Source: Humidesulfovibrio sp. (GTDB taxonomy: Bacteria; Desulfobacterota; Desulfovibrionia; Desulfovibrionales; Desulfovibrionaceae). Taken from it: a stretch of DNA of 64,000 nt. Below the pieces are notes generated by a model. That model worked only from the letters and a program-made list of their open reading frames with translations. It did no database searches and was not told the origin of the DNA. The number at the start of each line of letters is the position of its first letter. Within the stretch, counting starts at the first letter, position 1. Shown in pieces: positions 23,771 to 44,483 of this stretch. The position numbers and the translations under genes are program-made. The DNA lies in NCBI RefSeq assembly GCF_030689645.1, contig NZ_JAUYFU010000024.1, positions 145,343-209,342 of the forward strand. Reading direction: 5' to 3'.

Positions 23771-23868
<98 letters not shown>

Positions 23869-23876
23869 TTATAAAA

Positions 23877-23917
23877 GCCTTGTTCCTCGGTATGTTGCCG
23901 GAGAACAAGGCTTTTTT
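23877..23917 (+). terminator. Intrinsic terminator directly inside attL
   Basis: GCCTTGTTCCTCGG...CCGGAGAACAAGGC-TTTTTT. Confidence 0.8.
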
Positions 23918-23953
23918 CTTTTCACTGCTCCAGTACTCTGTTACAGTGGAGGT

Positions 23954-25741
23954 ATGGAGCAGATGCCCAAACACCCGAGACTTTGCCGTCGTGGCGCGAC
24001 CTATTATCACCGTGCCGCAATCCCCGTTGATATCGCTGACAGCTACCCCAAGACGGAAGAGACCTTTTCCCTTGGCACCAAGGACCACCAGGAAGCGGTG
24101 CGTCGTGTGCGCGTCGCTGCTGCCGAGGTGGACCGGAAGTTCGAGGCTCATCGCAGGATGCTCGCCCAGAAGGCGAAGCCTCCGCTGAAGGAGCTGTCGG
24201 GCGAAGAGATCAAGCGCATCGGCGAGGTCTACTACACGTATCTCCTGGAAGAGGACGAGGCCATCCGCTCCGAGCAGTTCTCCGAAGAGGAACGTCCGAC
24301 CATCGTGCTGGATGATGATGCGGACGTAAACGAGATCATCCGCACCCACGGGTTTCGTCCCCCTAACTTCGAGGGCTACGCCGAGGATAAAGATGCCATT
24401 GATGAGTTGACCCGCCACGATTACGCCCGTGGCAAGGTGAACTCGTTCTACAAGGGCGAGGCCGAAGAGGTGCTGACCTGGGAAGGGATCAGCGTGAACC
24501 TTGATCCAGCCTCGCCCAGTTGGCGCAAGCTGGCCCGCGAACTTCAGGCAGCCACGATCAAGGCCACCAAGGCCGTCCGCTTGAGGAATGAGGGTGAGGT
24601 CGTGGAAACGCCTCGCGTCCCCGGCCAGAGACCAGAGTCGCGTGTGCCGCTGCTTTCCATGGCCGTCGAACAGTGGGTCGAGGAAAAGGCCCGGACGAGT
24701 TGGGTCGCCAAGACCAAGCGTTAGCATTGCAAGTGGATGGAACACTTCATCGCGGCCATCGGGGACCGGCCCCTGGATGCGTACACCAAGACGGACGCCA
24801 GGGCCTACAAGTCCATGCTGCTCAAGCTGCCTGCCAACTGGGTCAAGTTCAGCGAACTTCAGGGCCTGCCGCTCGACAAGGCTTCCACCAAGGCCCAGGA
24901 GCTTGGCATGGAGCCGATGACCGAGAGCAACGTCAACAAGCTGCTGGGCTTTGTCGGCTCGTTCTGGACGTGGGCCTCTGACCAGTATGACGAGGCACCG
25001 GCCAACCCGTTCAAGGGCCTCAAGATCAAGCAGCGCAAGCGCATCCGTGAAGAGCGTGATCCGTTCTCGGTGGAGGAGCTTCGAGCCATCTTCAGCGCTC
25101 CGATCTACACCGGGTGCGCATCACTCCGGGAATGGAAGAGACCTGGAGCGTTTGTTCCCCGCAACTCCGGCATGTTCTGGGTTCCGTTGCTCAGCCTGTT
25201 CACGGGCGCTCGCATGGGGGAGATCATCCAGCTCTACGTCGAGGATGTGCGGCAAGAGGATGGCATCACCTTCCTCGACCTCAATGACAATGGCGAGGAC
25301 AAGCGCCTGAAGACAACCTATTCCCAGCGGTCCATCCCGATCCATGCGTCCATTTTGGACAAGGGCTTCATGGACCATGTGGCCTTGTGCCGCAGCCAGG
25401 GACAGAAGCGGCTGTTTCCTGATCTCGCCATGGGCGAGGATGGCTACTATTCCACGCCCTTTTCCAAGCACTTCAGCCGCTTCCTCAGGGCCATCGGCAT
25501 CAAGAACCGCAAGAACGCCTTCCACAGCTTCCGGCACAGCTTCGAGGACGCCTGCCGTGACTCGGACATCCCCAAGGAGATCATGGACGCTCTCCAGGGG
25601 CATGGCCAGGAGGGCATGTCCGAACGGTACGGGCGGGGCTACTACCTGAAGAAGCTGGACGAGGCGATGAAACGGTTCCAGTACCGCGACCTCGACCTCT
25701 CGCATCTCAATGTTTTGGCGCAAAAATCCGAGAGGCCGTAA
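23954..25741 (+). pseudogene. Tyrosine site-specific integrase interrupted by an in-frame amber (TAG at 24722-24724)
   Basis: ORFs 23954-24724 and 24737-25741 are in the same frame (offset 783 nt); catalytic residues GARMGEI, HSFRHSFE, GHGQ, YGRGYY all in the second part. Confidence 0.85.
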
Positions 25742-25742
25742 C

Positions 25743-26444
25743 ATGGTGATTGACTCGGATTTACCCCCCGTCCCCCGGGTCTCCTTTGATGAGCTGTTGC
25801 TCGAGTGCATCGACGCGCTTGTGACTCCTAGCATGGAAGGTGCTGGGCGCGAGATACATCTCCTGTTGCTTGATGAGGCCTCAAAGGAACCTAGCCACTC
25901 AGAGCATCTCCAGGAAACGCTGAAAGAGGTTGCGGACATCTTCCGTAATCCGGGTAGTATTAATCCCGATCATGATCCTAGCAGCCCCAAAGCTCGAGCA
26001 GAAAGTCTTGCGGCTGCTTTGAGCCAGGAGCTAGGGCAGGCTGGCCCACGTTATATTTTCCACGGGACCATTTGGGGGAGGCTGGCCGGGATCGCCAACG
26101 AAGGTCTTGTTCCGGGGCGGTTTACCGTGTGGAATGATGATGTGGCTTCCAGAAAGTATTGCGATTCAGCGGTATTCTTCACTGCGTCGTGGCGTCGTGC
26201 CGTGTGGTGGGCAGATGCGGCGCATCACTGTTCTCGGGGCAGGCGAGATAGCAAGCACCGAACACCAGTCATTATTCGTATTTCGGCTGACGGGCTGAGA
26301 CTTGAACCGGACCAACGAGCAGTCTTTCCCGGCTGCCTCATGGTGCGTTCCACCGTGAGCTTGGTTGATCCGCACGTCATATCCGGTCAGTTTTCTGGGT
26401 TTCCAATCTGGCGTCCGCTTGCCGAGGTCCTTGCCACCAAGTAG
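25743..26444 (+). CDS. Uncharacterised island protein, possible ADP-ribosyltransferase/KptA-like fold
   Basis: RYIFHGTIWGRLAGIANEGLVPG ... SAVFFTASWRRAVWWA ... LRLEPDQRAVFPGCLMVRSTVSLVDPHVI. Confidence 0.6.
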   Translation: MVIDSDLPPVPRVSFDELLLECIDALVTPSMEGAGREIHLLLLDEASKEPSHSEHLQETLKEVADIFRNPGSINPDHDPSSPKARAESLAAALSQELGQAGPRYIFHGTIWGRLAGIANEGLVPGRFTVWNDDVASRKYCDSAVFFTASWRRAVWWADAAHHCSRGRRDSKHRTPVIIRISADGLRLEPDQRAVFPGCLMVRSTVSLVDPHVISGQFSGFPIWRPLAEVLATK

Positions 26445-26456
26445 CAGGGCGTGCTA

Positions 26457-26496
26457 GGTACAGAATGGCGTAACGAACATTGCGCCAATTTGTACC
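26457..26496. repeat. 40-bp imperfect palindrome upstream of the serine recombinase
   Basis: GGTACAGAATGGCGTAACGA/ACATTGCGCCAATTTGTACC; 15 of 20 position pairs complementary. Confidence 0.8.
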
Positions 26497-26508
26497 CGGA
26501 GGCCCACC

Positions 26509-27225
26509 ATGAAGATCGTCGCTTACCAACGCGTTTCCACAGCCCGGCAGGGCAGGAGTGGCCTGGGGCTTGAAGCTCAGGATCGTGCCATTCAGGAACA
26601 TGCCCGAGCCAAGGACGCCACCCTCATCGGCTCCTTCACGGAGGTTGAGAGTGGGAAGATCAACGCCCGCCCAGAGCTAGCCAAGGCCTTGCACCTCGCC
26701 AAGGTGACAGGGGCGACGCTGGTCATCGCGAAGTTGGACAGGCTCTCCCGCAATGCGGCCTTTCTGCTAGCGCTACGGGACAGCGGGGTCCGTTTCGTCG
26801 CTGCTGACATGCCTGAGGCCAACGATTTGACCGTGGGCATCATGGCCTTGGTGGCTCAGCAGGAGCGTGAGGCAATCGCCAAGCGCACCAGAGAGGCCCT
26901 GACGTCCGCCAAGGCGCGTGGAGTGCGGCTGGGCAATCCCAATGGTGCGGCGGCCCTGCGGCGGGCGGGCAAGGGTAATATTGCGAGCCTCAGCAGTATC
27001 AAGGCCAATGCGGATCGCCACGCCGCAGACCTTTCACCCGTCATCGCGTCCCTTCAGATTGAGGGATTTACTTCGCTCGGAGCCTTGGCGCGGTCCCTCA
27101 ACGAGCGCGGAATGCTGACCCCTCGTGGTGGGCGTTGGCACAAGTCTTCAGTTCTCAATTTGCTTGAGCGCCTAAGCAAACTTTCCGTTGAAACACAGGT
27201 GGCCCAAACACAAGCTCCAAGATGA
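26509..27225 (+). CDS. Small serine recombinase (resolvase/invertase family)
   Basis: MKIVAYQRVSTARQGRSGLGLEAQ; VIAKLDRLSRN; VAQQEREAIAKRTREALTSAKARGVRLGNP; C-terminal HTH-like region. Confidence 0.9.
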   Translation: MKIVAYQRVSTARQGRSGLGLEAQDRAIQEHARAKDATLIGSFTEVESGKINARPELAKALHLAKVTGATLVIAKLDRLSRNAAFLLALRDSGVRFVAADMPEANDLTVGIMALVAQQEREAIAKRTREALTSAKARGVRLGNPNGAAALRRAGKGNIASLSSIKANADRHAADLSPVIASLQIEGFTSLGALARSLNERGMLTPRGGRWHKSSVLNLLERLSKLSVETQVAQTQAPR

Positions 27226-27334
27226 CGCCTTGTGAGTAAATACTCCTCTTCTACTCTGGGATATCTTTATCTTTTCAACTGGCTGACTGCCATGTATAGA
27301 CCCAGTAGTATCAAGCCAATCTCCTGGGGGAATC

Positions 27335-30300
27335 ATGAATATCTTCGAATTTCGAGAGAACCTGATTTCGGACTATGCCTCCTACATCAAGAGCTTCCGC
27401 ACCATTCGTGATTCCCGGATAGACCAAGAGGTTACTCAAAAGATTGAAGAGGGTGTGCTCTGGCCCGATCCACTTATCCAACTCAACCCATCATATGCCC
27501 CAGGCAAGTCCGTTCCAGACCTCGTGGCAGAGAAGCTGCTGCATCCTGAGGCCGAGAAGATCTTTCGCAAGGGCAAGGACAAGGGCGCTGGTACTCCGGT
27601 CAGACTGTACACCCATCAGGAGGCGGCGGTGCGGACCGCCAGAGGTGGCCACAATTACGTCCTCACCACCGGCACAGGATCAGGCAAGAGTCTTGCGTAC
27701 ATCCTGCCCATCGTGGACTTTGTTCTGCGCAATGGCTCCGGTAAGGGAATCAAGGCCATCATCATCTACCCTATGAATGCTTTGGCGAATAGCCAGCACG
27801 GAGAACTCGAGAAGTTCCTCTGCCAGGGGTATCCGGATGGGAAGCCCCTGGTCACGTTTAGGCGGTACACGGGCCAGGAGTCTGAGACGGAAAGGCAGGA
27901 GATCATCACCTCGCCCCCGGACATCATCCTCACCAATTATGTCATGCTCGAGCTGATGCTCACCAGACCTCGTGAACGTGAGTTGATCAAGGCTGCTGTC
28001 GGATTGAAATTTCTTGTCCTGGATGAGCTTCATACCTATCGGGGAAGGCAAGGCGCAGACGTTGCCATGCTGGTCAGGCGAGTCCGGGACCGTCTTGCTG
28101 GAGGAGAACTGCAATGTGTCGGCACTTCTGCGACGCTTGGTGGAGAGGGGACCTTTGAGCAGCAGCGTGTTGAGGTAGCTGGTGTCGCCTCCAAGCTCTT
28201 TGGTGCCGATGTGGCTCCGGAGCATGTCATTGGCGAGACACTGCTCCGAACCACGCCATACCGGGGTGAAGATGACCCCACATTCATCAAAGACCTGACT
28301 GAGCGGGTAAGTGAACCTTCCCGGCCCTTCCCGGTCCTCTATGACGCATTTGTCCGCGATCCCCTGTGCTGCTGGATCGAAAGCACCCTTGGCATCCAGA
28401 AGGAGTCTGGGACTGACCGTCTCGTCCGTGCCACACCCAAGGGTGTGGATGGAAAGGATGGGGCCGCCGCGATGCTCAGCAAGCTCACAGGCCTGGTTGA
28501 GGAGACGTGTTCCCTGGCCATCAAGGCCGCACTGCTTGGCGGAACCCAGTGCGAAGCCAATCCTGTGACCGGCTTCAAGCCCTTCGCCTTCCGTCTCCAC
28601 CAGTTCATCTCGCGTGGAGATGCGGTCTATGCCTCGCCAGAAAGCATTGAGCAGCGGCACATCACCCTGAATGGTCAGAAGTTCGTCCCCGGTAGTCGAG
28701 AGCGAGTTCTTTTCCCTGTCGTCTTCTGCCGGGAGTGTGGTCAGGAGTACTACAGCGTCAACAAGACAAAGAATGCAGAGACGCGTGAAACGTGCTTTGA
28801 AGCCCGAGACTACAAAGACCAACTCCCAGATGGGGAGTCCGTTCCAGGCTTTCTGTTCATCTCCGAGGACAGCTCTTGGCCAGTGGACGCCTCCGAGGTG
28901 GTGGAGCGGGTTCCTGAAGACTGGGTTGAGGAGAAAAACGATAAACGGCGTCTCAAAAGCACGGTCAAGGACCGGGTGCCTGAAGCTATCCGGGTTGCTG
29001 CTTCAGGGGTGGCAAGCAAGGATGGTGTGGATGCCGCGTTCGTCCCTGCGCCATTCCGATTCTGCTTGCAGTGCGGCGTGGCATATGACGCTCGCCAGCG
29101 GGCCGACAGCTCCAAGTTGAGTTCTCTCGCCACAGGTGGTCGCAGTACTGCGACAACAGTCCTCGGGTTGTCCACCGTCAAGCTCCTGCGAGCGGAAGCT
29201 GACCTGGAGGATGAAGCCAAAAAGCTCCTCAGTTTCACCGACAACCGGCAGGACGCTTCCCTTCAGGCTGGCCACTTCAACGATTTTATCGAAGTCAGCA
29301 TGCTCCGTTCTGCGCTCTATCGCGCTGCTCTGGACGCTGGGCCAGATGGCATCTCCCATGATGAATTGGCCCCTCGAGTCTTCAACGCTTTGGGGCTTGA
29401 TCCTGAGGAGTATTCGACCCTGACTGGGGAAGCATCAGAAATCCAGTTGATCAATGCGGGGAAGGCCTTACGCAATGTCCTCGGGTATCGCTTGTACAAC
29501 GACCTCAAGCGTGGTTGGCGCGTGACATCCCCGAACCTGGAGCAATGCGGGCTTCTCGGGATCGATTACCCCGCCTTGTCGTCCATCTGCGGTAATGCCA
29601 CGGCCTGGGGAAGCTGCCATGCGGCGCTTTCTTCGGCGGATGTCGCTACCAGGATACATGTCTGCAAGGTCCTGCTGGACTACTTCAGACGGAATCTGGC
29701 CGTGAAGGTGGACTATCTCGACAGCGCCCACCAAGAAGCCATCCAGCAGCAGAGCTACCAGTACCTGATCGAGCCTTGGGGGTTGGATGAGGCCGAGCAG
29801 AAGAAGATGGAGCATGCCGCCGTCTTGTACCCCAGAGGGATTCGCCCAAAAGAATACCAGGGCTACGTTTACCTTTCTCCACGTGGCGGCTTCGGCCAAT
29901 TCCTGGGGCGCAAGAATACGTTCCCAGCGTATTCTGAACGGATCAAGATGGGTGAGCTGTCGGGGATTTTTGCCAACCTCCTGACCATCCTGACAGAGGG
30001 TGGTCTGCTTGAAGTTGTCAGGCCTCCCAGGAAGCCGGATGAAGTTCCTGGGTTCCAGCTCCGTGCTGCTGCCATCGTCTGGAAAGCTGGTGATGGCTCT
30101 CAGGCATACCACGATCCAATCAGGGTGCCGCACATCTCGGATACTGGTCTCCGTACCAACCCTTTCTTTGTTGATTTCTACAAGTTCGTGGCGTTCGGCC
30201 TGAAGGGGTATACCGCCAGAGAGCATACGGCCCAGGTGCCATACTCTCTCCGCGAGGAGCGAGAGGAGGCATTCCGCAAGGCACGGCTCCCCATCCTCTT

Positions 30301-32518
30301 CTGCTCCCCGACAATGGAGCTTGGTATCGACATCTCGGACTTGAACGTGGTGAACCTCAGGAATGTGCCGCCTACACCCGCGAACTATGCTCAGCGGAGT
30401 GGCCGTGCTGGCAGAGGTGGACAGCCCGCGCTGGTGTTCACCTACTGCACCACGGGTAGTCCCCACGATCAGTATTTCTTCAAGCGCCCGACGAAAATGG
30501 TGGCGGGAAGCGTCACTCCGCCCCGGCTGGACTTGACGAATGAAGACCTTGTCCGCGCTCACATGCAGGCCATTTGGCTTGCGGAGTCGGACCTCGACCT
30601 CAAGAAATCACTCAGGGACATCCTGGACCTTGGTAGTGACCAGCAGCAGTATCCTTTTCTGCCCTCTGTTTTGGAGAAGCTCACTGCCACTGATCCGAAG
30701 AAGCGAGCTTTGACTCGAGCGAAAGAGGTGCTGGCGACCATCAAGGGCGATCTGAGTTTGGTGGACTGGTACGATGACAAGTGGCTGGACGGAGTTTTTG
30801 CCCATGTCGGGAAGAGGTTCAACCAGGCCTGTGATCGTTGGCGTGGCCTCTATCGTTCAGCACTGGCTCAGGCGCACGAGCAGGACGCAGTCATTCGCGA
30901 CGCCACGAGGTCGCACGATGAAAAGGCGCGGGCCAAGCGTCAGCGGCAAGAGGCTGAATCACAGCTTGCCCTGTTGACGGACGTGGACAGCATCCAGCAG
31001 TCTGATTTCTACTGCTATCGCTATTTCGCCAGCGAGGGTTTCCTGCCGGGGTACAACTTCCCCAGGTTGCCACTCTCGGCCTTCATCCCCGCTCGTAAGA
31101 CCAAGCAGCGGGACGAGTACCTCTCACGCCCCAGGTTCCTTGCCATTTCGGAGTTTGGGCCGAGGGCTGTGCTCTACCATGAAGGGGCCAGATACGTGAT
31201 CCACAAGGTCATCATGCCGGTGAGCGAAGAGGAACCGTTGCTGACCAAGGCGAAGATTTGCCCCCTCTGTGGTTACCTCCACAACTGTCCGGACACTGGC
31301 GGCCCAGATTTGTGCGAGCAGTGCGAGAATCCCTTAAACCTCCCTCTTGGCCCTCTCTTCCGTATGCAGAACGTGGCCACGCGGAGGCGGGACAAGATCA
31401 ACTCCGATGAAGAAGAGCGGATGCGTTACGGGTTCGACTTGGTTACCACTGTTAGGTTTGATGAACAGGACGGGACACCGACGTTTCGGCACGGGAGCGT
31501 CACCGGCGACAAGGGTGAGGTCGCCAGCTTGACCTACGGCCATGGCGCAACCCTGTGGCGTATCAACATGGGATGGAGCAGGCGCAAGAACAAGGACGAG
31601 CACGGCTTTGTACTGGATATGGACAAGGGGCTGTGGTCCAAGAATAACGCCGATCAGGACGATGACGACACCGATCCGATGACCAGCAATACCCAACGGG
31701 TCATCCCCTATGTGGCGGATAGGCGCAACAGCCTGATCCTGGAGCCGAAAAGAGCTTTGAACATTGAGTTCATGGCGGCGCTCCAGGCGGCCCTAAAGAG
31801 AGCCATAGAGATCAAGTACCAGCTTGAAAGCATGGAGTTGGCCGTAGAACCGCTGCCAAAATCCACCGACAGGCGGACCATCCTCTTCTACGAATCAGCA
31901 GAAGGTGGGGCAGGAGTGCTCCGCAGACTTCTTGACGGGCCTCAGGATCTTGCTGAAGTGGCTCGGCTGGCATTGGAGATTTGTCACTTCGATCCGGACA
32001 CTGGCGAAGACAGGAGACGGCCTCCTGGAGCCTCGGAGGACTGCGAGGCAGCCTGCTATGACTGCCTGCTGAATTATGCCAACCAGAGGGACCATGGGCT
32101 GCTTGACCGGCAGTTGGTAAAGGACTTCCTCATGGATTTGGCCCAGGCGACTGTGTCCTCATCCCCTGGCCCCAAGCCGAGGGAGAAGCATCTGGACGAT
32201 CTTCTCAAGCTGGCTGGGGTAAAGCTTGAGCGGGATTGGCTCGAGTTCTTAGAGGCGAGAGGTCTCAAGCTGCCAAGCCATGCCCAGCACAGCATCTCTG
32301 AGTGCCACACCCAACCTGATTTCTTCTATGAGAATCACGGCGCGGTCATCTACATCGATGGTCATGTACACACCCATTCCGACGTTCAGGCCAAAGACGC
32401 CACGCAAGAGGCTTGTCTTGCCAACGCCGGCTATCTGGTCATCCGCTTCTCTGGCGATGTTTCCAAGTGGGCAGGCATTATCTCGAACCACCAATCCATC
32501 TTTGGGAAGATCAAATGA
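27335..32518 (+). CDS. Large superfamily-2 helicase with DUF1998-like C-terminal region and a terminal nuclease-like domain; DISARM DrmA/DrmB-like or Druantia DruE-like
   Basis: Walker A TTGTGSGKSLAYILP; DELH box; CICPLCGYLHNC...LCEQCENPL zinc motif; EGGAGVLRRLL and CEAACYDCLLNYANQRDHGLLDRQLV typical of DUF1998; C-terminal QPDFFYENHGAVIYIDGHVHTHSDVQAKDATQEACLANAGYLVIRF. Confidence 0.82.
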   Translation: MNIFEFRENLISDYASYIKSFRTIRDSRIDQEVTQKIEEGVLWPDPLIQLNPSYAPGKSVPDLVAEKLLHPEAEKIFRKGKDKGAGTPVRLYTHQEAAVRTARGGHNYVLTTGTGSGKSLAYILPIVDFVLRNGSGKGIKAIIIYPMNALANSQHGELEKFLCQGYPDGKPLVTFRRYTGQESETERQEIITSPPDIILTNYVMLELMLTRPRERELIKAAVGLKFLVLDELHTYRGRQGADVAMLVRRVRDRLAGGELQCVGTSATLGGEGTFEQQRVEVAGVASKLFGADVAPEHVIGETLLRTTPYRGEDDPTFIKDLTERVSEPSRPFPVLYDAFVRDPLCCWIESTLGIQKESGTDRLVRATPKGVDGKDGAAAMLSKLTGLVEETCSLAIKAALLGGTQCEANPVTGFKPFAFRLHQFISRGDAVYASPESIEQRHITLNGQKFVPGSRERVLFPVVFCRECGQEYYSVNKTKNAETRETCFEARDYKDQLPDGESVPGFLFISEDSSWPVDASEVVERVPEDWVEEKNDKRRLKSTVKDRVPEAIRVAASGVASKDGVDAAFVPAPFRFCLQCGVAYDARQRADSSKLSSLATGGRSTATTVLGLSTVKLLRAEADLEDEAKKLLSFTDNRQDASLQAGHFNDFIEVSMLRSALYRAALDAGPDGISHDELAPRVFNALGLDPEEYSTLTGEASEIQLINAGKALRNVLGYRLYNDLKRGWRVTSPNLEQCGLLGIDYPALSSICGNATAWGSCHAALSSADVATRIHVCKVLLDYFRRNLAVKVDYLDSAHQEAIQQQSYQYLIEPWGLDEAEQKKMEHAAVLYPRGIRPKEYQGYVYLSPRGGFGQFLGRKNTFPAYSERIKMGELSGIFANLLTILTEGGLLEVVRPPRKPDEVPGFQLRAAAIVWKAGDGSQAYHDPIRVPHISDTGLRTNPFFVDFYKFVAFGLKGYTAREHTAQVPYSLREEREEAFRKARLPILFCSPTMELGIDISDLNVVNLRNVPPTPANYAQRSGRAGRGGQPALVFTYCTTGSPHDQYFFKRPTKMVAGSVTPPRLDLTNEDLVRAHMQAIWLAESDLDLKKSLRDILDLGSDQQQYPFLPSVLEKLTATDPKKRALTRAKEVLATIKGDLSLVDWYDDKWLDGVFAHVGKRFNQACDRWRGLYRSALAQAHEQDAVIRDATRSHDEKARAKRQRQEAESQLALLTDVDSIQQSDFYCYRYFASEGFLPGYNFPRLPLSAFIPARKTKQRDEYLSRPRFLAISEFGPRAVLYHEGARYVIHKVIMPVSEEEPLLTKAKICPLCGYLHNCPDTGGPDLCEQCENPLNLPLGPLFRMQNVATRRRDKINSDEEERMRYGFDLVTTVRFDEQDGTPTFRHGSVTGDKGEVASLTYGHGATLWRINMGWSRRKNKDEHGFVLDMDKGLWSKNNADQDDDDTDPMTSNTQRVIPYVADRRNSLILEPKRALNIEFMAALQAALKRAIEIKYQLESMELAVEPLPKSTDRRTILFYESAEGGAGVLRRLLDGPQDLAEVARLALEICHFDPDTGEDRRRPPGASEDCEAACYDCLLNYANQRDHGLLDRQLVKDFLMDLAQATVSSSPGPKPREKHLDDLLKLAGVKLERDWLEFLEARGLKLPSHAQHSISECHTQPDFFYENHGAVIYIDGHVHTHSDVQAKDATQEACLANAGYLVIRFSGDVSKWAGIISNHQSIFGKIK

Positions 32519-35364
32519 GCTACGCCGTTGGTTCACTCGTTAAGGCCAGGAATCGGGAGTGGGTGGTGCTCCCTGAGTCCTCTGACGAATTGTTGGTCCT
32601 GAGGCCTCTCGGAGGAACGGACAAGGAGATCGCTGGAGTTCACCCTGGCCTGGAACCTGTGGGGCCAGCCCAGTTTGATCCACCAGATCCCAGCAAGCCC
32701 GGTGATTTCATCACGTCCAGATTGCTGCGAGACGCGGTGCGCCTGGGGTTCCGTTCCAGTGCAGGTCCGTTCCGTTCTTTTGGCAAGATTGCCGTGGAGC
32801 CGCGCCCATACCAACTTGTGCCGCTGCTCATGGCCCTCAAGCTCGATCCGGTCCGCATCCTGGTGTCAGACGACGTAGGCATCGGGAAAACCATTGAGGC
32901 TTCCCTCATCGCCAGGGAACTTCTGGATCGTGGAGAGGTCCAACGGCTCGCAGTCCTTTGCCCTCCCCACCTTGCTGAGCAGTGGCAGGGCGAACTGCGT
33001 GAGAAGTTCAACATCGAGGTTGTGTTGATTCTGCCCTCCACCGCGAGGAGCCTGGAAAGGCATTGCAGGCCCGACGAGTCCTTGTTTGAGCGGTATCCCT
33101 ATTCCGTGGTCTCTCTGGACTACATCAAAACCGACCACCGCCGTGATGAGTTCCTCCGGACCTGCCCGGAACTGGTCATCATCGATGAGGCCCACACCTG
33201 CGCATGGAGCGGAGAAGGGCGTGGTGTCCGCCATCAGCGCCACCGGCTCATTAAGGACCTAGCCGACAAGCCCGATCAACACATGGTTTTGGTGACGGCC
33301 ACGCCACATAGCGGCAAGGATGTCGCGTTCCGTTCGCTCTTGTCACTGCTCAATCCGGATTTCAAAGACTTGCCAGAAGACCTTGCTGGCCCTGCGCAAG
33401 AACAGAACCGGCGCAAGTTGGCGGCCCACTTCATTCAGCGGAAACGCGCTGATATCAAACACTTTCTCTCAACAGATACCCCCTTCCCAGACAGGGAAGA
33501 ACGAGAACTCCAGTACCGCTTGTCGCCGAACTACAAGAAGCTTTTCGACAAGGTGCTGGAATATGCCCGCGAGACTGTCCAGGCCGGGGCGGCGGAAGGC
33601 AGGCACAGACAGCGGGTCCGCTGGTGGTCTGTTTTGGGCCTGCTGAGGTCTCTGGCCTCCAGCCCTGCCGCTGCTGCTGCCACGCTTCGCAGTCGTGCCA
33701 GCGTTGCGGACACAGAGAGCGCTGAAGAAGCTGACCAGCTTGGGCGGCAGACGGTGCTGGACCTGATGGACGAAGAGGGTGGTGATGCCCTGGACGTGGC
33801 CCCAGGCAGCGATGTCTATGTGGATGATGAGAACGTTCAGGTGCGCAGGCGGCTCTTGCAGATGGCCCGCGAGGCTGATGCCCTTTTGGGAGCTGAGGAC
33901 CAGAAGCTGAAGACGATTCTGTCTGAGGTGAAGAAGCTGCTGGACGAGGGGTTCCATCCCATCGTGTTCTGTCGCTTCATCCCAACGGCGGACTACGTGG
34001 CAGATGAGTTTGGACGGAAGCTCAATGGCGTCGTGGTTGACTCGGTCACGGGCATGCTCCCACCGGCGGAACGCGAGGAGCGTGTTCTCGCCCTGTCCAA
34101 GGCCCCCAAGCGGGTCCTCGTCTGCACCGACTGCCTCAGTGAAGGCATCAACCTCCAAGAACATTTCGATGCTGTCATCCATTATGACTTGTCGTGGAAC
34201 CCGACTCGCCATGAGCAGCGGGAAGGCCGTGTGGACCGCTTTGGCCAGCCCAAGCCTGTCGTTCGCATCCTGACGTATTTCGGCGTCGATAATCAGATCG
34301 ACGGCTTCATCATCGACGTCCTCATCAAGAAGCACAAGAACATAAAGAACGACCTTGGTATTTCCGTTCCGGTTCCAGTCGAGAGTGACGCTGTGGTCCA
34401 GGCCATCTTTGAGGGCTTGCTACTGCGTGGCGGTGCGGCCCAATCTCAAGGGCAGCGTAGCCTCTTCCTGCCGGGCATTGAGGAACTCATCAAACCCAAA
34501 GCCGATGCTCTGTATGCCGAGTGGGAGAATGCCTCCCAGCGGGAAAAGAGAACCCGTACCATGTTTGCTCAGGAGGTCATCAAGACCGAAGAGGTGGCCA
34601 AGGAACTGGATGCCATGCGCTCAGCCATCGGCTCTGGCGTGGAAGTGGAGCGCTTCACCCGCGAGGCGCTTCAGGCGCTGGGAGCCATCGTCTCCATGGC
34701 AGGCCCCAGCCTGAGCGTTGACTTGAAAGGCACGCCTCAAGCGCTCAAAGATGCGCTCCCCGTTGACGATATCCTAAAGGCCCGGTTCGCCATGCCGGTG
34801 CAGGACGATGAGACCTACCTGCACCGCACGCACAACTTTGTGGAGAGCTTGGCCGCTTTCATCATGGACACGGCGCTTGATCCCATCCAGGAAGGCGTGG
34901 CTAAACGCTGTGGAGCTATCCGCACCAGGGCGGTGATGACTCGCACCACGATTCTGATGGTGCGGTTCCGCTACCACATCATCACGCGCAAGGATGGGGT
35001 CGAGACGCCGCTCTTGGCTGAGGACTGCCGCCTGCTGGGTTTTGAAGGGTCTCCTGATGCAATGACTTGGATTCCTGAGGCGGAGGCCGAGAAGCTGCTG
35101 CTGACGATACCAGATGCCAGTGTGCCGCCTGACACGGCCAGGGGCTTTCTCACGCCCATCCTCGAAGGCTTCGGTGCCGTCTGGCCCGAGTTGGAGAAGA
35201 TCGCCATGAGCCGGGGTGACGAGCTGCTGGCCGCCCACAGGCGCGTTCGCACGGAGAGCCGCCACAAGGGCGTCTCCTACGCCATAGAGCCACAGTTGCC
35301 ACCTGACGTGCTGGGCCTCTACGTCTTCATGCCGGTTCCCCGGCAGGCGGGAGGTGCCGCATGA
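32515..35364 (+). CDS. SNF2-family helicase, DrmD-like
   Basis: EPRPYQLVPLLMALKLDPVRILVSDDVGIGKTIEASLIARELL; IIDEAHTCA; LVTATPHSGKD; HEQREGRVDRFGQPK; ATGA overlap with upstream helicase. Confidence 0.85.
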   Translation: MSYAVGSLVKARNREWVVLPESSDELLVLRPLGGTDKEIAGVHPGLEPVGPAQFDPPDPSKPGDFITSRLLRDAVRLGFRSSAGPFRSFGKIAVEPRPYQLVPLLMALKLDPVRILVSDDVGIGKTIEASLIARELLDRGEVQRLAVLCPPHLAEQWQGELREKFNIEVVLILPSTARSLERHCRPDESLFERYPYSVVSLDYIKTDHRRDEFLRTCPELVIIDEAHTCAWSGEGRGVRHQRHRLIKDLADKPDQHMVLVTATPHSGKDVAFRSLLSLLNPDFKDLPEDLAGPAQEQNRRKLAAHFIQRKRADIKHFLSTDTPFPDREERELQYRLSPNYKKLFDKVLEYARETVQAGAAEGRHRQRVRWWSVLGLLRSLASSPAAAAATLRSRASVADTESAEEADQLGRQTVLDLMDEEGGDALDVAPGSDVYVDDENVQVRRRLLQMAREADALLGAEDQKLKTILSEVKKLLDEGFHPIVFCRFIPTADYVADEFGRKLNGVVVDSVTGMLPPAEREERVLALSKAPKRVLVCTDCLSEGINLQEHFDAVIHYDLSWNPTRHEQREGRVDRFGQPKPVVRILTYFGVDNQIDGFIIDVLIKKHKNIKNDLGISVPVPVESDAVVQAIFEGLLLRGGAAQSQGQRSLFLPGIEELIKPKADALYAEWENASQREKRTRTMFAQEVIKTEEVAKELDAMRSAIGSGVEVERFTREALQALGAIVSMAGPSLSVDLKGTPQALKDALPVDDILKARFAMPVQDDETYLHRTHNFVESLAAFIMDTALDPIQEGVAKRCGAIRTRAVMTRTTILMVRFRYHIITRKDGVETPLLAEDCRLLGFEGSPDAMTWIPEAEAEKLLLTIPDASVPPDTARGFLTPILEGFGAVWPELEKIAMSRGDELLAAHRRVRTESRHKGVSYAIEPQLPPDVLGLYVFMPVPRQAGGAA

Positions 35365-38300
35365 TCATCAAGAAGTCCCGCGACATCTTCGCCACCGTCA
35401 CAACCGAAGGTTCGGCCTTGCCCCCGGACATCCTCCAGCGGGTTGCGGACCTGGATCGGGAACTGCCCGGCCTGACGCCTGCGGATTACCACCTAGACGG
35501 GGAGAAGCTCTCCGAGGCCACCAATAGGGCCTGGAACAGGCTGCTGGCCGCCTGGGGCAGCTTCAAGGCCGTCCGCGATGCGATCCCCGGAGACAAGCCC
35601 GGCACCTCCGAGACCCGCGAGAAGTGGCTCCTGCCCCTCTTCAACGAGCTGGGCTATGGCCGCTTGCTCGGGGCCAAGGCAATTGAACTGGGCGGCAAGT
35701 CCTATTCCATCTCCCATGGCTGGGGCAGCACGCCCATTCATCTGCTCGGCTGCAACGTCCCCCTGGACAAGAAAACCAAAGGCATTCAAGGCGCAACCGT
35801 CGCCGCACCCCACGGTCTGGTCCAGGAACTCCTGAACCGCTCAGACGACCACCTCTGGGCCTTTGTCACCAACGGCCTCAAGCTGCGCATCCTGCGCGAC
35901 AACATCAGCTTCACCCGTCAGGCCTATGTCGAGTTCGACCTTGAGGCCATGATGGAAGGCCAGGTCTACCCGGACTTCCGTCTCCTGTGGCTGGTGTGCC
36001 ACCAGTCTCGTGTGGAAGCAGATAGCCCTGAGGACTGCTTCCTTGAGCAGTGGTCCAAGGCCGCTCGAGACATCGGTTCCCGCGTGCTGGAGCATCTCCG
36101 TAACGGAGTTGAATCCGCCATCAACGAACTTGGTGCTGGCTTCCTGGACCACTCGTCCAACTTGGACATGAAGGGAAAACTCCGTTCTGGGGCCTTGGAC
36201 AAGCAGGATTACTTCCGCCAGTTGCTCCGCTTGATCTACCGCCTGCTGTTCCTCTTTGTCTCCGAGGACCGGGGCCTGCTGCACAAGGACCCATCGTCCA
36301 AACAGGCCGAGGTGTTCCTCAAGTTCTATTCCACGGCCCGGCTGCGCCGTCTGGCCGCCACCCTGCGTGGCAGCCGTCACGATGACATCTACGAGAGCCT
36401 GCGCCTTGTCATGCAGCGCCTGGGCAGCGATGAGGGTTGCCAGGAGCTTGGGCTGGCCCCGCTGGGCAGCATGCTCTTCTCCAGCGCAGCCATGCCCGAC
36501 ATTGAAGCCTGCCGCATCAGCAATGAGGCGCTGCTCTCCGCTGTGCGTCATCTGGCCACCATCAGCGGGCCAGAGGGCCTGCGCCCGGTGGACTTCAAGA
36601 ACCTTGGCGCGGAGGAACTGGGCAGCATTTACGAGTCCCTGCTGGAACTGCATCCCAACATGGACGATGGCTTCAAGCTCGAGACCGCCGCAGGCCACGA
36701 GCGCAAGACCACGGGCAGCTACTACACCCCGGAGAGCCTCATCCAGAGCCTGCTGGACACGGCCCTTGATCCGGTGCTGGCCGAGGCCCGCAAGGCCGTG
36801 AATCCTGAGCAGGCCATCCTGGACCTCAAGGTGTGCGATCCGGCATGCGGCAGCGGTCACTTCCTGCTGGCCGCCGCCAACCGCATGGCCAAGGCCTTGG
36901 CCGCTGCCCGCACGGGTGAGGACGAGCCTGCGCCGGAGGCTGTGCGTGAGGCCAAGCGAGCCATCATCAGCCGCTGTATCTACGGCGTGGATTTGAACCC
37001 CATGGCTGTGGAGCTGTGCAAGGTGAACCTCTGGCTGGAGTCCATGGACCCTGGCAAGCCGCTGTCCTTTTTGGACAGCCACGTCCAGTGCGGCAACAGC
37101 CTGCTTGGGGCTACGCCCGCCTTGCTGCGAGCTGGCATTCCGGACGAGGCCTTCAGCCCCATAGAGGGTGACGAGAAGGAACGCTGCCAAGCAGCCAAGA
37201 AGAGTAACAAGGAACAGCGCAAGGACCATGTGGCACGGTTGAAGCGCTCGGGCCTGATGCCCTACACCGAGGAACCATTCATCCAACTCGGAAACCTCGC
37301 CGCGTCCGTGCAGGAGTTCATGCGCATCGACGACTCCACCATCGAGGGTGTCCGTTCGCGCCAGCGCATGTGGGAGGCGCTGGCCAGCGGCAGCGGCTAC
37401 CGCTTTGGCCGAATGTGGGCGGATGCTTGGTGCGCGGCTTTTGTGTGGAAGAAGATCAAGGCCCCGACTGGCGAGGCGTTCTATCCCATCACCGAGGACG
37501 TTTTCCGGCGCATCGAGAAGAATCCGTTCAGCATCCCCGACTGGATGCAGAAGGAGATTGAGCGCCTGTCCCGGCAGTACCAGTTCTTCCACTGGCACCT
37601 GGCCTTCCCGGAGGTCTTCCGCTTGCCTGAAAAGGGGCAGGCCCCGAAAAGCCCGCAGGCTGGTTGGGACGGCGGGTTTGATGTGGTTCTCGGCAATCCA
37701 CCGTGGGAGCGCATCAAGATTCAGGAAAAGGAGTGGTTCGCGAGCAAGCGCCCTGACATCGCCAATGCCCGCAATGCCGCAGAGCGCCAGAGGCTCATCC
37801 GAGAGCTTGCCCAGACCGACCCGGAGTTGCTGAACGGCTTCAACGAAGACAAGCGCAAAGCTGAAGGGGAAAGTCACCTACTGCGTAATGCGGGGAGTTA
37901 CCCGCTTTGTGGTCGGGGTGATATCAACACGTACAGCATTTTCACTGAGCTAGGCCGGTTCGTCCTGTCTTCCATTGGCCGCCTTGGCTGCATCGTCCCG
38001 TCTGGCATTGCCTTCGATGACACAACGAAGTTCTTCTTCCAAGATATCGTTGAAAGGCAGAGCTTGGTGTCCCTGTATGACTTTGAGAATAGGAACATCT
38101 TCCCGTCAGTGCATAGCAGCTACAAATTCTGTCTGCTCACCCTGGCGGGTGCGAACCGGCCAGCCAAGAGCGGGGCGGATTTTGCCTTCTTCCTGCACGA
38201 CGTGGCGGAGATTCGCGAAGAGGAACGCAGGTTCAAGCTCACCGCCGAGGACATCACACTCATCAACCCCAACAGTCGTACATGTCCTATCTTCCGCTCC

Positions 38301-39608
38301 AAGCGCGATGCCGAAATCACCAAAGGTATCTACCGTCGCGTGCCGGTCCTCATCCGCGAGGCCACGGAGAAAGAGCCGGGGAAAAATCCCTGGGGACTTA
38401 GCTTTATGGCGATGTTGCATATGGCCAATGACTCTGGAGTGTTTAAGATTCGCCAGGAGCTTGAGCAGGCCGGTTGGACGCTGCATGGCAATTGCTTTGT
38501 GAAAGATGGTGAGGCTTGTCTGCCTCTTTACGAAGCGAAGATGGTCCATCACTACGACCACCGCTGGGCCACCTACGAGCTGGATGGCAGCACCAGGAAC
38601 GTGACTCTTGAGGAGAAGCAGGACCCAAACTTCGTAATACTGCCTCGCTACTGGGTGCATGAGTGGGAGGTGGCGAAGCGGGCCAGCCGCAGCCCGGACG
38701 TGGTCATCAAGGCCCTTGTGGATGCTGAGCGCAACGACGGTGATGCTGAACGCAAGCTTGTGGTCAATGTCCTGGCCATGTGGTTGGCGGGCTACCATCT
38801 GAACCATGGCGACAAGGAACTTGGCAACAAGCTTTTGGCCGCAACACAGCCCCGCACGACGAGCCTCATTGCCTCCACCACGGGCTGGGTGGCTGTCCAG
38901 GCCATGGAGGAAGAATACCCCCTGACGCCGGGCGAGGCCGAGCAGATTAAACAGGCGCTGACAGGCGATGTCATTCAACAGGGACGGGACTTGGTCCTCA
39001 GCCGCACGCCGAAGTGGTTTATGGGCTGGCGGGATATCTGTCGCAGCACAGACGAGCGGACGGTGATCCCCGGCATTACACCGGCAGCGGCATTCGGCGA
39101 TACATTTTTACTCATGTTCCCTGCGGAGAATACCCGCGAACTCTCGCCCATTTTGGCCTCATCATTGACCTCATTCGCCTTGGACTATGCGGCGAGGCAG
39201 AAGGTTGGCGGGACACACTTAAAGTATCATGTGTTCAAGCAAATTCCTGTCCTTCCCCCCAGCCAGTTCAAGATAGCTACGCCGTGGGCTGCGCATGAAC
39301 CGCTTCAGGATTGGATTCAGACCAGAGCGAGGGCGCTTTATGCGTCCGACTACCAGATGTCTGAGTTGCTGAAGACAGCGTACCAGCCGCGCAGCCCTGA
39401 AGAGCGTTTCGCCATCCGCTGTGAACTCGACGCTGCGTTCTTGCACCTCTACGGCATCACCCGTGAGGACGTGGACTACATCATGGACACCTTCCCCATC
39501 GTGAAGCGCAAAGACGAGGCCGCCTTCGGCTGTTACCGGACCAAGGAGATGATCCTGGAGAAGTATGACGAGATGGCTGTCGCGATGAGGACACTGACGC
39601 AACACTAA
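35361..39608 (+). CDS. Eco57I-like N6-adenine DNA methyltransferase (DrmMI/type IIG-like)
   Basis: Motif I LKVCDPACGSGHFLLAAANRMAK; motif IV FDVVLGNPPWERI; 1415 aa; ATGA overlap with SNF2 gene. Confidence 0.9.
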   Translation: MIIKKSRDIFATVTTEGSALPPDILQRVADLDRELPGLTPADYHLDGEKLSEATNRAWNRLLAAWGSFKAVRDAIPGDKPGTSETREKWLLPLFNELGYGRLLGAKAIELGGKSYSISHGWGSTPIHLLGCNVPLDKKTKGIQGATVAAPHGLVQELLNRSDDHLWAFVTNGLKLRILRDNISFTRQAYVEFDLEAMMEGQVYPDFRLLWLVCHQSRVEADSPEDCFLEQWSKAARDIGSRVLEHLRNGVESAINELGAGFLDHSSNLDMKGKLRSGALDKQDYFRQLLRLIYRLLFLFVSEDRGLLHKDPSSKQAEVFLKFYSTARLRRLAATLRGSRHDDIYESLRLVMQRLGSDEGCQELGLAPLGSMLFSSAAMPDIEACRISNEALLSAVRHLATISGPEGLRPVDFKNLGAEELGSIYESLLELHPNMDDGFKLETAAGHERKTTGSYYTPESLIQSLLDTALDPVLAEARKAVNPEQAILDLKVCDPACGSGHFLLAAANRMAKALAAARTGEDEPAPEAVREAKRAIISRCIYGVDLNPMAVELCKVNLWLESMDPGKPLSFLDSHVQCGNSLLGATPALLRAGIPDEAFSPIEGDEKERCQAAKKSNKEQRKDHVARLKRSGLMPYTEEPFIQLGNLAASVQEFMRIDDSTIEGVRSRQRMWEALASGSGYRFGRMWADAWCAAFVWKKIKAPTGEAFYPITEDVFRRIEKNPFSIPDWMQKEIERLSRQYQFFHWHLAFPEVFRLPEKGQAPKSPQAGWDGGFDVVLGNPPWERIKIQEKEWFASKRPDIANARNAAERQRLIRELAQTDPELLNGFNEDKRKAEGESHLLRNAGSYPLCGRGDINTYSIFTELGRFVLSSIGRLGCIVPSGIAFDDTTKFFFQDIVERQSLVSLYDFENRNIFPSVHSSYKFCLLTLAGANRPAKSGADFAFFLHDVAEIREEERRFKLTAEDITLINPNSRTCPIFRSKRDAEITKGIYRRVPVLIREATEKEPGKNPWGLSFMAMLHMANDSGVFKIRQELEQAGWTLHGNCFVKDGEACLPLYEAKMVHHYDHRWATYELDGSTRNVTLEEKQDPNFVILPRYWVHEWEVAKRASRSPDVVIKALVDAERNDGDAERKLVVNVLAMWLAGYHLNHGDKELGNKLLAATQPRTTSLIASTTGWVAVQAMEEEYPLTPGEAEQIKQALTGDVIQQGRDLVLSRTPKWFMGWRDICRSTDERTVIPGITPAAAFGDTFLLMFPAENTRELSPILASSLTSFALDYAARQKVGGTHLKYHVFKQIPVLPPSQFKIATPWAAHEPLQDWIQTRARALYASDYQMSELLKTAYQPRSPEERFAIRCELDAAFLHLYGITREDVDYIMDTFPIVKRKDEAAFGCYRTKEMILEKYDEMAVAMRTLTQH

Positions 39609-39653
39609 CGCCGCTTCCCAGGCATTCTTGCATGAGAAGTCCACGGAGGGCGC

Positions 39654-40466
39654 ATGCCGAAAGCTATACCGGCTTGGAAAGTCAATCTTCGTTCGCGTCT
39701 AGCGAAGTTGTGCGACAAGCACGGACGAGTTTCGGAGGCTCTCGCCGTTGAGTTGATTAAAGAGAGTGTCTGGTGGGAGACACATCCTTCTGGTTCGATA
39801 CAGGCTCCTGGATTCGCGAAGCATATCTACGAGAACTCCGGTGAATGGAAGATAACTTTTGGCGCAAATACGTTTTTGATTTCTCGTGCAGTGCATGGCT
39901 GCTGCAAAGTTATCGAGAACTGGTTACCTCGACAGTCTGGGCCAATTGCACAGTTGCCTTGGGCAACTCTTCAGACTGAATTAGCCTCGGTACTCAGAGG
40001 TTCAGTGTCCAATTTTATTGGAGAGATATATCAGCGATATACCGGAGGATCGAATGAGCAGATCGTGTTTGGATCTCATGCCATATCAATTCCTGGCTTT
40101 ATCGAGGTTCTGGCTCGCAGCCTTCACAGCCCTGAATTAGGCGCATTTTCGAAGACGTCGCAGCCTAGGGCAAGACAAAGTGGTGCAGATGCTGCTTCAA
40201 CTGCTTCAGAATATACATCCTGCCCGTTGTGTGGTCACAGCGTAAAGACCGTAAATTTGACAAAGCACCAGAGAAGAAAGTGTCCTAGAAGGCCTGCTGC
40301 TTCACCACAAGCTACTATTGTTACTGAAGAGGCGCGGACGACTCCTGGGGGCCTTGTGTGGCCGCTTGGCAAGGACGAGACGTTGTGCCAACAGTGCGGC
40401 GTCAGAATCGGAATGGCGCGACTTGCTGAACATCTAGCTCAACGTTGCCCAAAACGTCCTCTGTAG
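39654..40466 (+). CDS. Uncharacterised protein with two C-terminal zinc-finger-like motifs
   Basis: [22 protein letters not shown] and [22 protein letters not shown] (CxxC-x(n)-H-x(n)-C twice). Confidence 0.7.
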
Positions 40467-40515
40467 ATGCACAAAGCCGTTGGCACCGGAATTCTCACCC
40501 AGAACAGGAGCACCA

Positions 40516-42309
40516 ATGCCCCCTTGCTATTCAGTCAACAGCCACCCCGTTGAAACCATTCTGTCCTGGGTCAAGGCCGGGGAGATTGCCATCCCTGAAA
40601 TTCAACGTCCTTTTGTGTGGGACGCCACCAACGTTCGCGATCTGCTCGACTCCTTGTTCCAGGGCTACCCCGTGGGCTATCTCATCGCGTGGCGCAACCC
40701 CAGCGTGCGGCTGCGGGACGGCTCCCTGAGCGAGGGCAAGAAGGTCCTCATCGACGGTCAGCAGCGCGTCACGGCCCTCATGGCCGCAGTGCTCGGGTAT
40801 CAGGTCCTCACCAAGGACTACAGGCTCACCCGCATCCGCATCGCCTTCAATCCGCTGAGCCGAAAATTTGAGGTTCTCAATCCGGCCATCGAGAAGGATG
40901 TGACGTGGATTCCGGACATTTCAGAGGCCATGAAGAACGCGGCAAACCCGTTCACCGTGTTCAAGGCCTACTGCGCCCTGAACCCAACAGTGGATCAGGA
41001 GCAGGTCATGCAGTCCATCACGGACCTGCTAGCCATCCGGAACAACCTGATCGGTTTTGTGGAGCTGGCGCACGACCTGGACATCGAGACGGTTACGGAC
41101 ATCTTCATCCGCATCAACTCCAAGGGCGTGGTGCTGAACCAGTCGGACTTCGCCATGTCCAAGATCGCCGCCAGCGAGAGCCACGGCGGGCCGATGCTGC
41201 GCAAGGCCATCGACTACTTCTGCCACATGGCGGTGGCGCCAGAGTTCTATGGGCAGATCGCCGAGCGCGACCCGGAGTTCGCGGCCACGGACTGGTTCAA
41301 GAAGATGACTTGGCTCAAGGACGAGAATGACGATCTCTATGACCCGTCCTACACGGACATGCTCCGCGTGGCCTGCATCGCGGCCTTTGAGCGCGGCAAG
41401 CTGTCGGACCTTGTGAGCCTGCTCTCGGGCAGGAACTTCGAGACCCGCCAATATGAGGACGAGATCGCCGCTGAGTCATTCGTGCGTCTCGGCGAGGGCA
41501 TCAAGGACTTCATCAAGGAAACGCATTTCCAGCGCTTCCTCATGATCATCCGCTCCGCCGGGTTCATAGCCCCTGGCCTCATCCGGTCTCAGAACGCCCT
41601 GAACTTCGCCTACGCGTTGTACCTGAAGCTCCGCCGGGACAAGTATGACCCGGCAGTCATCGAACGCACGGTGAGACGCTGGTTCGTCCTCTCGCTGCTC
41701 ACCGCCCGCTATTCCGGTTCCTTCGAAAGTCAGTTCGACTCGGACATCAAACGCGCCAAGGAAGGGGACTTCAGCGAGTTTCTGGCCCAGACGGAGCAGG
41801 CCGTGCTGTCTGAGTCGTTCTGGAGCTTTGGCTTGGTGCAGGAACTGGAGAAGGCTAGCACGAACAGTCCGTACCTGAACCTGTTCTGGGCCGCTCAGGT
41901 GAAGCTGGAGGACCGTGGGTTCCTCTCGAGAGACATCACCGTGGGGCAGCTCATCGCCCACCAGGGTGACATCCACCACATCTTCCCGCGTGAATACCTC
42001 AAGAAGCATGGCATGAAGCAGGGAGCGTACAACCAGATCGCCAACTTCGTGTTCACCCAGTCGGAGATCAACATCCGGATCGGCAACAAGGCCCCCAAGG
42101 CCTACTTCGTCGAGGCATTGGCGCAGTGCGCGGATGGGCCGCTCAAGCTGGGGGGCATTGATGACCGAGCTGAGCTGGAGAATAACCTGATCCAGAATTG
42201 TATCCCCGGCGCATCGCTCGATCTCGAGCAGGGGGATTACGCGGAGTTCCTCAAGGCGCGGCGAGAGCTGATGGCCCAGAAGATCAAGGCGTACTACAAC
42301 ACGTTGTGA
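40516..42309 (+). CDS. DUF262/GmrSD-like protein with C-terminal HNH-like (DUF1524-type) region
   Basis: [71 protein letters not shown]...[26 protein letters not shown]. Confidence 0.85.
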
Positions 42310-42379
42310 CGGGTTTGGTGTATAGATTGCGAGTGTACAGGGCGCGTACGGTTTAGAAAATGGATTCTGGGAGAGGATA

Positions 42380-42934
42380 ATGGATTATTTTGAAGGCGTT
42401 GTGGCAACGTTGCTGGAATTTGAAGGCTATTGGGTAAATAGATCATTTAAGGTTGAGCTGACGATAGAGGATAAAAGAAGGATCGGCTTGCCTTGCATGC
42501 CTCGCGTTGAGTTGGATCTTCTCGCATATTGTGCTGCAAAAAATGAGCTTATAGTGTTTGAAGTGAAGTCGTATCTGGACTCTCCCGGCGTTAAGCTCAA
42601 GGATATATCGGAAAAGCATGATGTTCCCAAAGGCAGATACAAGTTGTTTACATCTGAAAGGTATCGAGAAGTAGTCTTCGGACGTTTGCGACAAGAGCTT
42701 ATGCTTCGTGGCATGGCGAATTCTAAGACCATTGTCACACTTGGACTTGCTGCCGGGAAAGTATACCAAGGAAAAAGCAAAGATGTCGAAATGGTTATGA
42801 GGAATAGTGGGTGGCGGTATATTTCCCCAGAGGAAATAAAGTTATGTGTGATGGCTTTTGCGGACGAGGGTTATGAGAATGATCCAACAGTGATTGCCGC
42901 CAAAATCCTCACTCGAGATAAGCAGAAACAGTAG
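42380..42934 (+). CDS. Small PD-(D/E)XK nuclease-like protein
   Basis: FEGYWVNRSFKVELT...RVELDLLAYCAAKNELIVFEVKSYLDSPGV (E..D..ExK pattern). Confidence 0.6.
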   Translation: MDYFEGVVATLLEFEGYWVNRSFKVELTIEDKRRIGLPCMPRVELDLLAYCAAKNELIVFEVKSYLDSPGVKLKDISEKHDVPKGRYKLFTSERYREVVFGRLRQELMLRGMANSKTIVTLGLAAGKVYQGKSKDVEMVMRNSGWRYISPEEIKLCVMAFADEGYENDPTVIAAKILTRDKQKQ

Positions 42935-43020
42935 TCTTCACCTCGCCGCCATGGCGGTGGCTGGATATTTAGTTTGCTCTTCGACTGCTCTCGTAGTGAC
43001 ACGTCACCAATTATGACATC

Positions 43021-43254
43021 TCATTTCTCGCCCAAGTGCTTCAAGCGTAGCGTGGGTGTGTTTAGAATCCTCTTGCAGTGTCCGCAGGTCACCTCTGCTT
43101 CGATCAGCCTATTGGCAACCTGGGTGAACTTTACGTCTGGCTCGAGCATTTTATGCGCCCCACAGTATGTCAGGCGCTCACCATTCAGGGTGACGATTAT
43201 GTGCCTTGCTCCATCCGGGTGACCTGGGCGGCCCCAGAAACCGATCTCGTACAT
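43021..43254 (-). CDS. Small uncharacterised island protein
   Basis: 77-aa ORF MYEIGFWGRPGHPDGARHIIVTLNGERLTYCGAHKML...VTCGHCKRIL, CxxC motif. Confidence 0.5.
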   Translation of the reverse strand: MYEIGFWGRPGHPDGARHIIVTLNGERLTYCGAHKMLEPDVKFTQVANRLIEAEVTCGHCKRILNTPTLRLKHLGEK

Positions 43255-43282
43255 GTGAATCTCCTGCGTCTAGGTTGTAGGG

Positions 43283-44269: not shown

Positions 44270-44483
44270 GGAATCTCCAGAAATGTGTTGCAGCTAAGGT
44301 AGATGCTGGTTTGGGCTACTCTGTGCGATCCAGCCCGGAGTGGGGGTATAGGTTATGAGCGCACAAGCTGCAAGTGCCTTTGGTGTTTAAGCTTAATGCC
44401 TACCGAAGTGGTTCTTCTGGACATGAGGGCTTTCTTTCATTTATCGGACTCACCCGGCTGCCCGGTAGCGGGGTGGCCATTTT

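Follow-up and report, generated by a model that had tools for sequence, protein, structure and literature searches.

The window analysed here, 64,000 nucleotides of a Humidesulfovibrio sp. genome (contig NZ_JAUYFU010000024.1), carries three very long genes encoding a YprA-family helicase, an SNF2/RapA-like helicase and a PglX/DrmMI-like DNA methyltransferase (Table 1). Judging from their sequences, they very probably form a Type I operon of the anti-phage system ARMADA, carried as cargo by an island in a tRNA-Ser gene. The three genes are codirectional, and neighbours share the tetranucleotide ATGA at 32515-32518 and at 35361-35364, as an earlier note on this DNA had observed. The sequence GGGGGAA, resembling a ribosome-binding site, stands directly 5' of the first ATG. 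The lengths that the note gave for the first and third genes stood, whereas the second had to be shortened from 983 to 949 aa. The longer form corresponds to an upstream TTG start at 32413, which is unneeded, and the orthologs in two genomes of the same genus likewise align as 949 aa. Three further codirectional genes follow the operon after short gaps (39654-42934).

Table 1. Features of the operon and its island, in window coordinates unless another locus is named
Feature	Position	Strand	Length, domains or evidence
tRNA-Ser(GCT), attachment site	23771..23864	+	ARAGORN
Integrated island	23846..46807	n/a	~22.9 kb; 23-bp direct repeats, empty site in relative
Attachment repeat 1, AATCCCTCCCTCTCCGCCAGAAA	23846..23868	+	tRNA 3' end
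Tyrosine integrase	23954..25741	+	DUF6538 N-terminus (PF20172), Phage_integrase C-terminus (PF00589)
244-aa protein, no family match	25710..26444	+	in all three sister islands
Small serine resolvase	26509..27225	+	PF00239, E=1.4e-24
Gene 1, YprA-family helicase with C-terminal Vsr-like nuclease	27335..32518	+	1727 aa, ATG start
Gene 1, predicted architecture			DEAD RecA1, RecA2, OB/CON/DUF1998 with Zn cysteines, Vsr-like nuclease at ~aa 1620-1715
Gene 2, SNF2/RapA-like (BrxHII/DrmD-like) helicase	32515..35364	+	949 aa, ATG at 32515
Gene 3, PglX/DrmMI-like N6-adenine DNA methyltransferase	35361..39608	+	1415 aa, ATG start
Gene 3, putative target-recognition region	38361-39290	+	~aa 1000-1310; conservation, mosaicism
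Gene 4	39654..40466	+	270 aa, C-terminal CPxC-H-C zinc fingers
Gene 5	40516..42309	+	DUF262 (GmrSD_N; PF03235, E=6e-28), C-terminal HNH-like HHIFP; DGQQR and HHIFP motifs
Gene 6, no family	42380..42934	+	184 aa
Attachment repeat 2	46785..46807	+	23-bp copy of repeat 1
ArmD-like gene, locus L108	15538-17595
ArmD-like gene, locus L111	15520-17598

The earlier note had read the first gene as DrmA- and DrmB-like parts and a nuclease in one polypeptide, and DEAD (PF00270), Helicase_C (PF00271), MZB/DUF1998 (PF09369) and DUF559 (PF04480) domains are indeed found in its single open reading frame, all above the Pfam gathering cut-offs. Its motifs are intact (Walker A at residues 113-119, DELH at 230-233, QRSGRAGR at 1020-1027), and two conserved pairs of CxxC cysteines (465/468 and 577/580) would fit, from the sequence alone, a zinc beta-barrel in RecA2, which in ARMADA Type I goes together with a BrxA-like helical insertion after RecA1. 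In profile comparisons the protein lies nearer to DruE (DruE3, E=1e-94) than to DrmA (E=2e-15); all DruE matches are partial, yet they are the best PADLOC models for this gene. Three observations support the prediction that the protein ends in an active Vsr-type nuclease. First, there is the DUF559 match. Secondly, when the C-terminal 273 aa were modelled from 46 sequences (predicted local distance difference test, pLDDT, 93), the two best distinct PDB matches in Foldseek, both with probability 0.99, were MrfA (its DUF1998 part, 6znp on top) and the catalytic domain of the homing endonuclease I-Bth0305I, which has a Vsr-like fold. Thirdly, E1632, D1662, D1675, H1679 and D1688, all present in the window protein, are 92-97% conserved among 77-80 homologs. 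The tail of gene 1 is thus a predicted Vsr-type nuclease fused to the helicase.

The second protein matches SNF2-rel_dom and Helicase_C above the Pfam gathering cut-offs as well as RapA structures (E=2e-21), with Walker A (GIGKT), DEAH and QREGRVDR all intact. That it is DrmD-like, as previously noticed, agrees with its match to the NCBIfam model DISARM_DrmD (E=4e-89), which at 300 bits stays below the cut-off of 610 bits; none of the three core proteins reaches an NCBIfam equivalog cut-off. The PADLOC model PDLC02853, labelled DpdE, matches gene 2 over its full length (E=7e-261). Since the SNF2 protein of a Deinococcus ARMADA-I locus also matches it full length (E=1e-231), we doubt this label; PDLC02853 is probably a model of ARMADA-I SNF2 proteins that has been wrongly named, and its label would misassign ARMADA I loci.

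Gene 3 displays Eco57I (PF07669) and N6_Mtase (PF02384) domains above the gathering cut-offs and has DrmMI as its best PADLOC model, in a partial match, which agrees with the Eco57I-like and DrmMI-like enzyme first proposed. The S-adenosylmethionine motif DPACGSGH (493-500) and the NPPW motif (779-782) are intact. A PD-ExK nuclease in the N-terminus was considered and rejected, because the conserved residues do not include its motif. Comparison with two sister islands in same-genus genomes, G216 and G212, reveals a mosaic. Against G216, YprA and SNF2 are 99% identical and methyltransferase residues 1101-1300 only 44-66%, whereas against G212 the two motors are 88-92% identical and the same residues 78-96%. 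This pattern fits an exchange of the putative target-recognition region, which would be G212-like here beside motors that are G216-like, and it predicts different methylated motifs for two systems with 99%-identical motors. A stretch at about residues 1113-1212 is absent from most homologs outside the genus.

We assign the operon to ARMADA Type I because its gene content, its gene order and its YprA-OB/DUF1998-Vsr architecture all match the published description. Bell et al. 2025 (PMC12458937, bioRxiv Sept 2025), who define ARMADA, give the Type I order as YprA helicase, BrxHII/RapA-like SNF2 helicase and PglX-like methyltransferase; many cyanobacteria and archaea have it the other way round. 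They also describe a YprA protein with a C-terminal predicted active Vsr-type nuclease, and place this first protein nearer to DruE than to DrmA. On this assignment the operon belongs, in a well-preserved form, to a recently named system and is not an undescribed architecture. The suggestion of a new helicase-methylase architecture therefore falls, the same content, order and domains being given in PMC12458937. The alternative suggestion of a DISARM-related system was sound as to the SNF2, DrmMI-like and YprA/DUF1998 parts, but the system already bears the name ARMADA Type I. A named system with identical gene content, which by the earlier note would refute its proposal if revealed by hidden Markov models, was found in the literature; none of the model libraries used placed the genes in it. 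PADLOC 2023 and NCBIfam 2026, neither of which has an ARMADA model, gave no ARMADA match and labelled the parts DruE, DpdE and DrmMI. Loci of this kind may hence be mistaken in automatic annotation for incomplete Druantia, Dpd or DISARM.

Conservation of the gene order agrees with this assignment. A search of approximately 85,000 genomes for relatives of YprA returned at least 585 (best 80 kept; at least 10 phyla), and the order was counted at the 51 loci whose DNA extends at least 7.5 kb downstream. Homologs of the SNF2 protein and the methyltransferase stand in the same order behind YprA at 50 of these 51 independent loci, far beyond chance, and the single exception has a truncated YprA; the co-occurrence that the earlier note had proposed to check is thereby established. 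The same order is found on plasmids of Deinococcus, Nocardioides, Roseomonas, Rhodococcus and Acidithiobacillus, and the three-gene set also occurs on some IMG/VR contigs. One Chroococcidiopsis locus (L020) shows the reversed order, as stated for cyanobacterial Type I. YprA was present in 9 of 348 genomes of the sampled class and SNF2 in 24 of 395 of the sampled phylum. In Deinococcus and Nocardioides McrBC adjoins the Type I operon; a DISARM-like cassette beside McrBC is also among the reports of Bell and co-workers. Other defence-like genes (PIN, EVE, DUF2357, SMC-like) lie within or behind Type I operons of Rhodococcus (L022), Chlorohelix (L019) and Agrobacterium (L159), which suggests that local accessories are frequent.

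The phylogeny of the first protein, also proposed earlier, supports the assignment. In a tree of 35 proteins the window protein falls within a 29-row ARMADA-I clade with support of 100/100, outside of which lie ARMADA II (Haematobacter, E. coli), DruE III of E. coli and a Druantia-like homolog from the cyanobacterium Microchaete. The protein is therefore set apart from DruE and ARMADA II; DrmA, together with two Deinococcus helicases, was left out of the final tree on account of very long branches in a first one. Long branches also make placement finer than the clade level unsafe. The E. coli DruE III used here adjoins Zorya II and an ARMADA II operon.

The motifs, together with relatives (the genetics of ARMADA II, the biochemistry of DruE and the structures of DrmAB), lead us to infer how such an operon might act. 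The PglX-like gene 3 product would N6-methylate a motif that its C-terminal recognition region selects, and thus mark self DNA. The SNF2/RapA-like motor would translocate on duplex DNA with the methyltransferase as reader, licensing attack on unmethylated DNA that is incoming or replicating. The YprA motor would load where single strands are exposed or on replication structures, with its OB-DUF1998 canopy gating translocation, and its C-terminal Vsr-type nuclease would cut the DNA; DruE, a relative, is a helicase-nuclease that loads on single-stranded DNA. The cell would survive, and defence would be direct and non-abortive.

The identification and the mechanism should be interpreted with some caution, since several points weigh against them. 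The Foldseek E-values are 0.045 and 0.096, both greater than 0.001, and the fold match leans on the probability, on a TM-score of 0.63 over a small target and on the conserved residues. The comparison with Type I, whose reference protein is WP_108720193.1, was made through its published description. According to PMC12458937, ARMADA II is antiphage and non-abortive, and requires all four proteins, the Walker motifs of ArmA and ArmC and the NPPW motif of the methyltransferase. Antiphage activity is shown there for Type II only, Type I being untested, and no published experiment on the function of Type I came up in our literature search. A protective role of the present operon would thus be argued from Type II, which requires ArmD, and no ArmD homolog was found in the window operon. 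How the two motors divide the work is inferred. The present operon is complete and intact and has comparators in two genomes of the same genus, along with a clean empty site; it would lend itself to a first test of Type I function.

ArmD itself is given as a Type II feature in the main text of PMC12458937. Five Type I loci of unrelated taxa (L042, L054, L065, L108, L111) contain a conserved gene of about 685 codons between YprA and SNF2. Its N-terminus looks RelE-like by eye, and a UvrD helicase is present in all three that were scanned; the one protein compared shares 35% identity with E. coli ARMADA II ArmD across 708 columns (E=2e-122). We hypothesize, while considering it rather unlikely, that ARMADA I has an exchangeable fourth slot, filled by an ArmD-like gene in some lineages and, in this genus, by a fast-diverging zinc-finger protein behind a methyltransferase with a swappable region. 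If so, Types I and II would be a single system whose effectors are optional, and the zinc-finger protein would be a new ARMADA component. A stand-alone ArmD-like RelE-UvrD gene does occur on another contig of the host genome (G000:C99:33216-35285), beside a ResIII-like helicase gene and a 923-aa gene. We rejected it as a part of the window system on the grounds that it lies on a different contig and that sister genomes lack it; it probably belongs to a different system, possibly one of defence.

The zinc-finger protein in question is gene 4, the first of the three genes behind the operon, and these are best read as separate island cargo, accessory rather than core. A six-gene system, in which genes 4 to 6 would be functional and the zinc-finger protein a target adaptor, is suggested by the common direction, the short gaps, the zinc-finger architecture and the presence of genes 4 and 5 in all three sister islands. 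We find it unlikely, given that the 80 wider Type I loci show neither gene 4 nor gene 6 and that DUF262 gave only one weak match there. Gene 5, predicted to be a single-chain GmrSD-like, Type IV-like restriction enzyme, has family members in 27 of 348 genomes of the class, mostly without ARMADA. Gene 6 is restricted to the window and G216, and missing in G212. Gene 4 is also found in two genomes without ARMADA, in one of them beside genes resembling Type III restriction-modification by eye; its model confidence of 61.9 was too low for a fold search. Covariation of gene 4 with the recognition region of the methyltransferase was rejected, the region being G212-like and gene 4 only 36-38% identical to the G216 and G212 copies alike.

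The boundaries of the island are given by its direct repeats and by an empty site in the same-genus genome G217, where window positions 23627-23869 and 46785-46849 match one contiguous stretch (3597-3839/3816-3879), the two alignments overlapping at the repeat. According to PMC12458937, ARMADA II islands sit in tRNA genes with direct repeats of 16-20 nt. An in-frame stop (24722-24724) interrupts the integrase, and because both sister islands read through it, the window copy is probably immobile unless the stop is a sequencing error. The same stop could mark a decayed, non-functional relic, a reading that is very unlikely for core genes that are full length, with intact motifs, and whose motors keep the high identities to G216 and G212 given above; for these reasons selection on them appears active. 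The 244-aa protein diverges fast between the sister islands (62% and 43-47% identity), and its segments FHGTIWGRLAGIANEGLVPG and VFFTASWR recall, by eye, ADP-ribosyltransferase or KptA folds. A 442-aa gene (44484-45812) matches the viral family phrog_4756, of unknown function (E=2e-28), and contains DYGQMNPRILY, which resembles by eye the palm motif of family-A polymerases. Just outside the island (47148-50071), a fused ABC transporter with a cyclic nucleotide monophosphate-binding domain lies beside a SET-domain protein.

A true class 1 DISARM variant, with drmA and drmB fused and drmC replaced by the fused nuclease, would account for the DrmD and DrmMI matches of genes 2 and 3. We regard it as highly improbable in view of the weak DrmA score of gene 1 and the sub-threshold DrmD match, and of a Nocardioides plasmid that carries separate drmA and drmB genes besides a Type I system within 33 kb. 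The earlier note had also seen neither drmC nor Druantia partners, correctly in both cases: a domain scan found no phospholipase D (PLD) nuclease among the genes from 24737 to 42934, and the partners are SNF2 and methyltransferase, not DruH or DruA-D. A Druantia-type system built on DruE with different partners, for which the best PADLOC models of gene 1 might speak, is scarcely credible when these matches are all partial, the same two partners recur at 50 of 51 loci and both DruE III and the Microchaete homolog lie outside the clade. Dpd, which needs 7-deazaguanine modification genes with DpdE and DpdJ, was rejected, as no such modification gene was found among the nine window proteins scanned and the window falls below the NCBIfam DpdE cut-off; ARMADA Type II was rejected as well, with YprA first and ArmD missing from the operon.

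Compared with known systems, the operon shares a helicase core and a DUF1998 fold with MrfA/YprA of B. subtilis, a repair enzyme of about 750 aa without a nuclease tail or a methyltransferase operon. Druantia resembles it in the YprA-family helicase, DUF1998 and C-terminal nuclease of DruE, and differs in its DruH or DruA-D partners, in having no SNF2 or methyltransferase, and in the PLD-type nuclease domains of Druantia III. Class 1 DISARM (drmD, drmMI, drmA, drmB, drmC) likewise combines an SNF2 helicase, a large adenine methyltransferase and a YprA-family helicase with DUF1998, but its drmA and drmB are separate and it has the drmC PLD gene, whereas the window has one fused gene that is not DrmA-like in sequence. 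ARMADA Type II (E. coli NCTC 12900 and ATCC 8739) has three homologous core proteins, in the order SNF2-methyltransferase-YprA; its YprA has about 2100 aa and is followed by an ArmD RelE-UvrD gene. From ARMADA Type I we find no difference that excludes membership, the zinc-finger and GmrSD-like genes being specific to the island; the two have in common a single-chain YprA with DUF1998 and a Vsr-type nuclease, the gene order, and a tRNA island with short direct repeats.

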